35,908 nucleotides of DNA from Pseudomonadota bacterium. Its GTDB lineage: Bacteria; Pseudomonadota; Gammaproteobacteria; Pseudomonadales; Halieaceae. Position 1 is the stretch's first letter; each line of letters starts with the position of its first letter. Under the pieces are notes generated by a model that was not told where the DNA came from, did no database searches, and saw only the letters and a list, made by a program, of their open reading frames with translations. Location: assembly GCA_015222725.1 (NCBI GenBank), contig JADFVW010000052.1:1-35908 (forward strand), in the 5' to 3' direction. The translations under genes and the position numbers were made by a program. Shown here one piece after another: positions 30,170-32,539 of the stretch.

Positions 30170-31594
30170 ATGAAACTCAGTATGCCGCGCTTTGATAAAG
30201 CCAGGGTCCTGGTGCTTGGCGATATTATGCTCGATCGCTATTGGCAGGGCCCGACCTCCCGCATCTCGCCAGAGGCACCGGTTCCCGTGGTGAAAGTGGA
30301 CGAGATTGTGGACAGACCCGGAGGCGCGGGTAACGTTGCCCTGAATATTTCCGCCCTGGGGGCAACCGCCAGTCTGCGCGGCTACACCGGTGATGATGAA
30401 ATGGCGGACTCCCTTGAGGACATGTTGCAGGGGGCGGGGGTGCAGTGCCTGTTCGAGCGCGAACCGGACCGTCCTACCATTACCAAGTTGCGGGTTATCT
30501 CCCGCCACCAGCAATTAATTCGCCTGGACTTTGAGGAGACCAATGCTTCCCAAAGGGACACAAATCTGGGAAGTGAACTACAAGCACACCTGGAAAACTG
30601 CGGTGCCCTGATTCTTTCGGATTATGCCAAGGGCGCCCTGGAGGATCCGGGACCCATTATCGCCACAGCTCGTGCTGCCGGGGTCCCCATACTGGTAGAC
30701 CCCAAGGGAACCGACTTTGCCCGATATCGGGGGGCAACTTTACTGACGCCCAATCTGCATGAGTTCGAAGCAGTGGTGGGTAGCTGCCCCTCGGAGCAGG
30801 AGTTGGTCGCAAGGGGTGAGGCCCTAATGGCCGAGTTGGATCTGGGAGCTCTGCTGGTAACCCGCGGAGAGCACGGTATGACCCTGTTGCGCCCCGGGGA
30901 GGAAGAGATGCATTTGCCCGCCCGGGCCCGGGAAGTTTTTGACGTAACCGGCGCGGGCGATACGGTAATCGCCGTGTTGGCCGCCGCCGTCGCCGCCGGT
31001 GAGAGTTTGCCCCACGCCGTGGCGCTGGCCAATACCGCCGCCAGTATCGTGGTCGCCAAATTGGGTACCGCCACCGTCAGCGCACCGGAGTTGCGCAGGG
31101 CTGTGCAAAGCGACCAGGGCTCCGAGCGTGGCGCGGTAAGCCTGGAGCAGCTACAGATCGCTATTGCCGACGCCCGCAGCCACGGCGAGAAAGTGGTTTT
31201 TACCAACGGCTGCTTTGATATTATCCACGCCGGACACGTGGGCTACCTGGAACAGGCCCGGGAACTGGGCGATCGCCTGATCGTGGCGGTAAACAGTGAT
31301 GCCTCGGTGCGCCGCCTGAAAGGCAAGGGTCGCCCGATTAATCCACAAGACAGACGCATGGCTGTTCTCGCCGGCCTGGAGGCTGTCGATTGGGTAGTGT
31401 GCTTTAAAGAAGATACGCCCGAAGCCCTGTTGCACGCGCTACACCCGGATGTCGTGGTAAAGGGCGGTGACTACGACAAAAAAGGCGTAGTGGGCTGGGA
31501 GATCGTCGAGGAATACGGTGGCGAGATAGCAGTGCTGGGTTTTCTGGATAATGTTTCCACTACTGCGATTGTGGAGAAGATTCGAGATGAATGA
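30170..31594 (+). CDS. hldE: bifunctional D-glycero-beta-D-manno-heptose-7-phosphate kinase / heptose 1-phosphate adenylyltransferase
   Basis: N-terminal PfkB kinase ([37 protein letters not shown]) and C-terminal cytidylyltransferase-like domain ([20 protein letters not shown]). Confidence 0.97.
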
Positions 31595-31621
31595 GATAAA
31601 GCCGGCTTTACTTAAATTTTA

Positions 31622-31743
31622 GATACGCCGCGACAGTTGTAGTGCTTTGATGGACCGTCTGAGGCCATGGATGGCCGAGGCCGAGCGCACATGGATGTGC
31701 TTGTAGCGTGTCCAGCAAAGCACTACAACTGTCGCGGCGTATC
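31622..31743. repeat. nested palindromic intergenic element (28-bp perfect outer inverted repeat, two inner hairpins)
   Basis: Left arm GATACGCCGCGACAGTTGTAGTGCTTTG (31622-31649) and right arm CAAAGCACTACAACTGTCGCGGCGTATC (31716-31743) are exact reverse complements. TGGAC (31651-31655) pairs with GTCCA (31710-31714). Inner hairpins: GGCCATGGATGGCC (31663-31676) and GCACATGGATGTGC (31687-31700). Confidence 0.93.
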
Positions 31744-31753
31744 GCTACCCAAC

Positions 31754-32539
31754 TTAAAAAATAACCCGCTTCGCAGCCAACACATTCGCCTCCAGATGCT
31801 CCGGTGTAATCGTGCCAATAATCGCCGAGCTTGTACCGGGGTGGGCGAAAATCAAATCCATGCTGGCCTGTACCGGATCATCGTAGTCTTTGGCGAGATG
31901 ACCACTGGCCAGCGCTTTTTTGATCAGTGCTCCCTTGCCCAGGCGTGCACACTCATCCAGTACTTTTTCTTCATCACGATATGCGAGATTGTAAGTCAGC
32001 ATTACAATATCGCTGGCCGCCGCCGCGGCAATTCCGCCATCCACGGTTTTGGTGGACATGCCGAAGGCTCGGATCAGGCCTCTTTGTTTAATGGCTTCCA
32101 GCGCCTGCAAGGTGCCAAGGTGATTGATGATGTCCAGGTCATTGCCGTCGGAGTGCACCAGAACCATGTCGATATAATCGGTCTCCAGGTGCTGCAGGCT
32201 TCTCTCAATGGAAAACTCGACGTGCTCGGGAGAGAAGTCGAAATGTGATTCTCCGTCGCAAAACTCCTCGCCGACCTTGCTGCAAATCAGCCAGTCTTTT
32301 CGCTGGCCCCTTAGTAGCGGGCCCAGGCGTTGCTCACTTTTTCCATAGGCAGGCGCGGTGTCGATCAGGTTGATACCAAGACTTCTTGCCTGGGTGAGCA
32401 GGGCGGTAGCGGCCCGGTCGTCCGGGATGGTGAAGCCCTCGGGATATTTTACGCCCTGGTCGCGGCCCAGCTTTACGGTGCCAAGCCCCAGGGCGCTGAC
32501 GACCATTCCGGTGTTTCCCAGGGGCCTCATCCAGCTCAT
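31754..32539 (-). CDS. aldo/keto reductase
   Basis: VSALGLGTVKLGR, INLIDTAPAYGKSEQRLGPLL, YIDMVLVHSDG, LTYNLAYRDEE, FAHPGTSSAIIGT. Confidence 0.92.
   Translation of the reverse strand: MSWMRPLGNTGMVVSALGLGTVKLGRDQGVKYPEGFTIPDDRAATALLTQARSLGINLIDTAPAYGKSEQRLGPLLRGQRKDWLICSKVGEEFCDGESHFDFSPEHVEFSIERSLQHLETDYIDMVLVHSDGNDLDIINHLGTLQALEAIKQRGLIRAFGMSTKTVDGGIAAAAASDIVMLTYNLAYRDEEKVLDECARLGKGALIKKALASGHLAKDYDDPVQASMDLIFAHPGTSSAIIGTITPEHLEANVLAAKRVIF

Follow-up and report, generated by a model that had tools for sequence, protein, structure and literature searches.

The convergent genes hldE and an aldo/keto reductase (AKR) gene are separated by a long palindrome at 31622-31743, and the question raised by this locus is whether the palindrome is a terminator, a mobile repeat or a structured RNA. 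It is the strongest and longest near-perfect inverted repeat in the window (the whole 35.9-kb stretch of DNA that was analyzed), and a search of the whole window identified only this one copy. Both flanking genes are supported by their Pfam domains (PfkB and cytidylyltransferase for hldE, Aldo_ket_red for the AKR). As described in the first-pass annotation, the palindrome lies between convergent stops: the hldE stop codon (TGA) ends at 31594, with the palindrome beginning 27 nt after the gene, and the AKR stop at 31754 follows after another 10 nt.

Structure of the palindrome

The palindrome consists of a long outer stem enclosing a core with two hairpins. The features are as follows.

31622-31649, + strand: left arm of the outer stem, 28 nt of copy-specific sequence, exact reverse complement of 31716-31743
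31651-31655, + strand: inner end of the outer stem, TGGAC (nGGAC in most copies)
31656-31709, + strand: conserved core, CGTC ... GCGT, with two hairpins; most core columns are invariant in the A1 alignment of 18 copies
31660-31680, + strand: hairpin 1, stem GGCC/GGCC, loop AUGGAU, with tandem G.A pairs of 31661-31662 with 31677-31678
31669-31671, + strand: GGA of hairpin 1, invariant in 18/18 copies
31687-31700, + strand: hairpin 2, GCAC-AUGGAU-GUGC, with GGA at 31693-31695; the stem varies with compensation between copies
31710-31714, + strand: inner end of the right arm, GTCCA
31716-31743, + strand: right arm of the outer stem, 28 nt

The two arms pair exactly, and after one mismatch (A at 31650, G at 31715) pairing resumes with TGGAC and GTCCA, just as first reported. 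The inner hairpins (GGCCATGGATGGCC at 31663-31676 and GCACATGGATGTGC at 31687-31700) do share the CATGGATG centre that had been noted. However, the earlier reading of each as a 6-bp stem with a 2-nt loop did not hold; they are better read as stems of 4-5 bp closing an AUGGAU loop. Tandem G.A pairs (TGAG/CGAG) extend hairpin 1 and are replaced by Watson-Crick pairs in copies L016 and L019.

The predicted RNA fold has an energy of -85.2 kcal/mol, compared with -43.1 +/- 3.9 for shuffled sequences (z = -10.9), and none of 200 shuffles equals it. Neither arm has a T run on its 3' side, in agreement with the first description, and the palindrome thereby lacks one part of an intrinsic terminator (a T run after a GC-rich hairpin). 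No clear -10/-35 promoter signal stands out upstream, and no T-tract downstream.

Dispersed copies with a fixed core and a free stem

A BLAST search with the element identified about 18 further places in its own genome, which match over the core only. A covariance model (R1) built from 18 own-genome copies matches 46 places in that genome (G000, an assembly that is 83% complete), 48 and 16 places in two congeneric genomes, and between 0 and 61 in further members of the family and order. Copy-rich genomes (G005, G010, G016, G019 and G023) contain 20-32 copies each. Three species of one genus (G017, G038 and G039) contain 52, 64 and 0 copies. The proposal that it is a dispersed intergenic repeat is supported by the 46 model matches and by three relatives (G001, G013 and G011) in which the orthologous hldE-AKR gap is short and contains no palindrome.

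A search of named genomes with the exact core pattern identified it in Haliea, Parahaliea, Pseudohaliea, Chromatocurvus, Kineobactrum and Mangrovimicrobium, and also in Marinobacter, Microbulbifer, Oceanimonas, Oceanisphaera, Zobellella, Marinospirillum and Pseudomonas. By kinship, this distribution puts the host in or near Halieaceae. No viral contig contained an exact match to the core, and carriage by phage was rejected on this basis.

Each copy has an outer stem of ~28 bp that is free in sequence and a fixed core of 56 nt that presents two ANGGAY loops. There is almost no variation in the core, none of the 18 founding copies has a change in either GGA triplet, and in 227 of the 278 copies from all sets both loops are hexaloops of the ANGGA type. 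The left arms, at nt 14-30 from the core, are only 34-41% identical across copies, where 30% is expected from composition. Within a copy, however, 91% of the 28 outer stem positions are Watson-Crick pairs, and the complementarity of 0.91 falls to 0.32 when the left arm of one copy is set against the right arm of another. There is very strong covariation, with 79 double-change cells compared with 18 in shuffles, and none of 500 shuffles reaches as high a value. Insertion into one fixed palindromic target was rejected, the arms being unrelated between copies.

In five copies of the host genome (L008, L011, L012, L015 and L019) another inverted repeat of ~18-30 bp, again nearly perfect, lies outside the inner stem, set off from it by a short asymmetric loop. 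In L012 each arm of this second repeat holds a TAA, and the two convergent genes can both be read as stopping there.

The departures from Watson-Crick pairing differ between the strands. Read on the strand that carries the GGA loops (+), the wobble departures in the own-genome arms are G.U in 30 cases and A.C in 2 (p 2.5e-7). In two Parahaliea genomes, stem positions 6-15, counted from the edge of the model, show 235 G.U and 9 A.C, and the G.U excess disappears beyond the stem. Other members of the family have a ratio of 30 to 4, and further Halieaceae and unassigned MAGs one of 85:6, with a weaker bias of 20:11 in Marinobacter. Relatedness between copies means that these counts are not fully independent, but the own-genome arms cannot be aligned from copy to copy. 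Since G.U lies far above A.C on the GGA strand, the + strand is selected as a folded single strand: it is the constrained strand, kept able to fold either as RNA or as single-stranded DNA. A plain DNA palindrome or cruciform was rejected because it would give equal numbers of G.U and A.C departures, not 30:2. RNA is the natural reading of the + strand fold. However, a G.T wobble is also mild as a DNA mismatch, and a strand-specific fold of single-stranded DNA is therefore possible as well.

About 20 sites are common to the two Parahaliea genomes G017 and G038. Their orthologous stems differ by 185 paired double changes compared with 117 single-side changes; at one such site (L105/L142) the core is nearly identical and the arms are largely rewritten. 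Nearly half of the double changes are transversions (85 transitions, 75 transversions), with the same transition to transversion ratio as the flanks. These observations fit a stem whose sequence is free to drift as long as its two sides still pair. The excess of double changes is explained as well by a strong requirement for pairing at high divergence, and one arm may in part have been copied onto the other. Some Parahaliea arms are closer to another copy in the same genome than to their orthologue, and conversion between copies may also occur. The stem is a clean natural example of a structure in which pairing is constrained and sequence is free.

Relationship to TwoAYGGAY RNA and a candidate role in CsrA binding

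None of the 4227 Rfam families reaches its gathering score anywhere in the window. The sole match at E <= 10 within 31560-31800 is to RF01731 (TwoAYGGAY), on the + strand with an E value of 2.8e-4. The alignment covers the full length of the model (1-168) and spans 31615-31750, with a score of 35.4 bits that lies below the gathering cut-off of 43 used as the threshold for membership. The best RF01731 score among the own-genome copies is 38.7 bits. Among 38 relatives, 10 have matches to the Rfam model above its own cut-off, and the RF01731 and R1 models agree at several places (for example G016:C28:36688, G005:C9:52580 and G009:C65:28476). The window copy has the two terminal AYGGAY loops of the family (AUGGAU in both cases) and its architecture, with an external stem round two hairpins, tandem G.A pairs, full-length alignment and covariation. 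The most fitting description of the palindrome is a divergent relative of RF01731, of a Halieaceae type and with a score formally below threshold. Both this RNA family and the CsrA-type loops were overlooked in the first-pass annotation.

TwoAYGGAY was listed as a probable RNA that is not cis-regulatory in the paper describing its discovery (Weinberg et al. 2010, PMC2864571). Independently, a computational motif study proposed RF01731 as a CsrA-binding RNA (PMC4333381), and the structure was revised in Rfam 15. Both the RNA family and the CsrA hypothesis are thus known from earlier publications. No account of dispersal, of outward pairing or of rewritten arms was found in the literature that could be searched.

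The host genome encodes CsrA with its VHREEIF segment intact, and CsrA was found in 34 of 38 relatives. An ANGGAY loop is the binding signature of CsrA/RsmA. The element contains two such hairpin loops, as expected of a decoy with at least two ANGGA loops per RNA, and its GGA sites are 24 nt apart, a spacing that could be bridged by one CsrA dimer. We consider it probable that the palindrome is a dispersed RNA-like copy of the TwoAYGGAY kind and not a lone terminator, with a folded + strand and copies that are candidate CsrA decoys. Judged from its sequence, titration of CsrA/RsmA is the most likely role. The + strand would be transcribed, the two hairpins would bind a CsrA/RsmA dimer, and the copies, acting jointly as decoys, would titrate CsrA. 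The long stem may serve to present and stabilize the two loops, in which case only its pairing, and not its sequence, would matter. The copies would be spread in MITE-like units. However, two relatives (G007 and G014) have CsrA but no copies, so a decoy role would not be general. A search for the RsmZ family gave no match in the relatives, in a search that was not validated by control genomes.

Dispersal, gene setting and alternative explanations

The dozens of copies often stand as outward-facing pairs and are present or absent at orthologous gaps. Among pairs of copies less than 400 bp apart, 111 of 112 are minus-plus, with both GGA strands facing outward, and none faces inward. In two Parahaliea genomes the outward pair forms an alignable unit of ~320-370 bp that occurs at many unrelated sites, and four units of Parahaliea maris are missing at the orthologous gaps in G039 and/or G017. 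The suggestion that the element is MITE-like is partly supported, by dispersed, alignable units and by empty orthologous sites; no transposase was found to accompany it.

Several further observations concern these units. At the site of the Parahaliea maris unit L141, G017 retains a remnant of ~45 nt with the hairpin CCACCCG-AGATAG-CGGGTGG (L171, 1790-1840), which suggests that the unit was lost by deletion inside the palindrome. A congeneric sister genome (G001) contains a TwoAYGGAY unit of ~230 bp, mostly 85-95% identical, at more than 10 sites (L314-L326, for example L316 2037-2282). The arms of its hairpin are conserved (GGCTGTAAAGGTTAGCTGTTTTGGACACC), with small palindromes that are themselves repeated, for example CCGGCCATCCGGA, on the flanks; several examples of the unit are located at contig ends. 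This expansion is young, and target duplications are best sought here. Members of the pairs in L011, L013, L003 and most Parahaliea units tend to differ after hairpin 2. In such mixed pairs one member continues with TTCACGGCG and the other with TTGTAGCG or the T-rich variant TCTTTTGCG.

The main rival to a CsrA decoy is a purely selfish, non-autonomous MITE-like element that would need its hairpins, in RNA or single-stranded DNA, in order to spread, through recognition by some transposase or reverse transcriptase, with CsrA playing no part. The Parahaliea units at unrelated sites, the highly similar G001 unit, the empty orthologous sites, the fixed outward pairing and the difference between 64 copies and 0 among species of a single genus are all consistent with this explanation. 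However, no transposase was found with the copies, and Y1 transposases are absent from several copy-rich genomes. No clear target duplications were seen; none was evident in four empty-site comparisons, whose flanks are too diverged for a clear reading. Additionally, both ANGGAY loops are kept across orders, which mobility alone would not obviously require. We regard a purely selfish element as possible but rather unlikely.

A bidirectional terminator, as first proposed, or a 3'-end mRNA stabilizer for hldE and the AKR gene is doubtful. The hairpin is very stable and close to both convergent stops, and among 120 units placed with a crude ORF call, 63 lie between convergent ORFs, 44 between tandem and 13 between divergent ORFs. 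However, the T-tract is absent, several units in relatives are located beyond a neighbouring gene's own intact intrinsic terminator, the three relatives with empty gaps have hldE without the element, and termination needs neither a conserved core nor conserved loops. In the tandem gaps, 28 of the 44 units are single copies, 11 in the sense and 17 in the antisense orientation. Given that they are oriented either way, these copies are not simply parts of a sense 3' UTR, and a sense 3' UTR element of the upstream gene is unsupported.

Least probable by far is a REP/BIME repeat, also suggested in the first-pass annotation, moved by a cognate RAYT (Y1) transposase. Like REP/BIME sequences and REPINs of the GTAG and CGTC families (PMC3733652), the copies are dispersed intergenic palindromes that often form opposed dimers near gene ends, and the window copy has CGTC before hairpin 1 and GTAG after hairpin 2. 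However, the unit is ~120 nt compared with 20-40 bp, its centre is conserved and its ends are variable, and GTAG is not conserved between copies. The Y1 transposase family PF01797 has no match in the host genome (83% complete) or in the five copy-rich genomes named above. As several copy-rich genomes are without Y1/RAYT, this explanation fails, and the family spreads by a route other than a Y1/RAYT transposase.

Since 2010 the sole pointer to a function for RF01731 has been a computational one, towards CsrA binding. Its relatives described here are dispersed, high-copy, strand-specific and outward-paired, and vary widely in number within a genus. From sequence considerations it is possible, and we suggest it tentatively, that a widespread dispersed element in marine Gammaproteobacteria carries CsrA/RsmA decoys and that its copy number could set the level of free CsrA. 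If so, outward-paired copies would have their stems rewritten at each site while the GGA hairpins stay fixed, and free CsrA could differ between sister species. The question raised is whether CsrA binds the copies and whether copy number tunes the Csr regulon. Culturable carriers are found in Parahaliea, Haliea, Marinobacter, Microbulbifer and Oceanimonas.

Several known systems share properties with the element. MITEs of Gammaproteobacteria are similarly short, non-coding and multi-copy, with empty orthologous sites. However, the element has no clear terminal inverted repeats in common with an insertion sequence and no visible target duplication, and it contains a constrained, RNA-like core. 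TwoAYGGAY RNA (PMC2864571) is closer, with two AYGGAY-type hairpins, tandem G.A pairs in one stem, a long external stem of poor sequence conservation, and a full-length match on the + strand. The window copy differs in its core sequence and in scoring under the gathering cut-off, and multi-copy dispersal, outward pairs, a convergent-gene setting and strand-specific wobble are undescribed for this RNA in the searchable literature. The ANGGA hairpin loops and proposed CsrA titration are shared with CsrB, CsrC and RsmX/Y/Z. A genome has between one and a few genes dedicated to those RNAs, each with several GGA sites, whereas the window element, which has no recognizable promoter or terminator, occurs in dozens of copies with two sites each.
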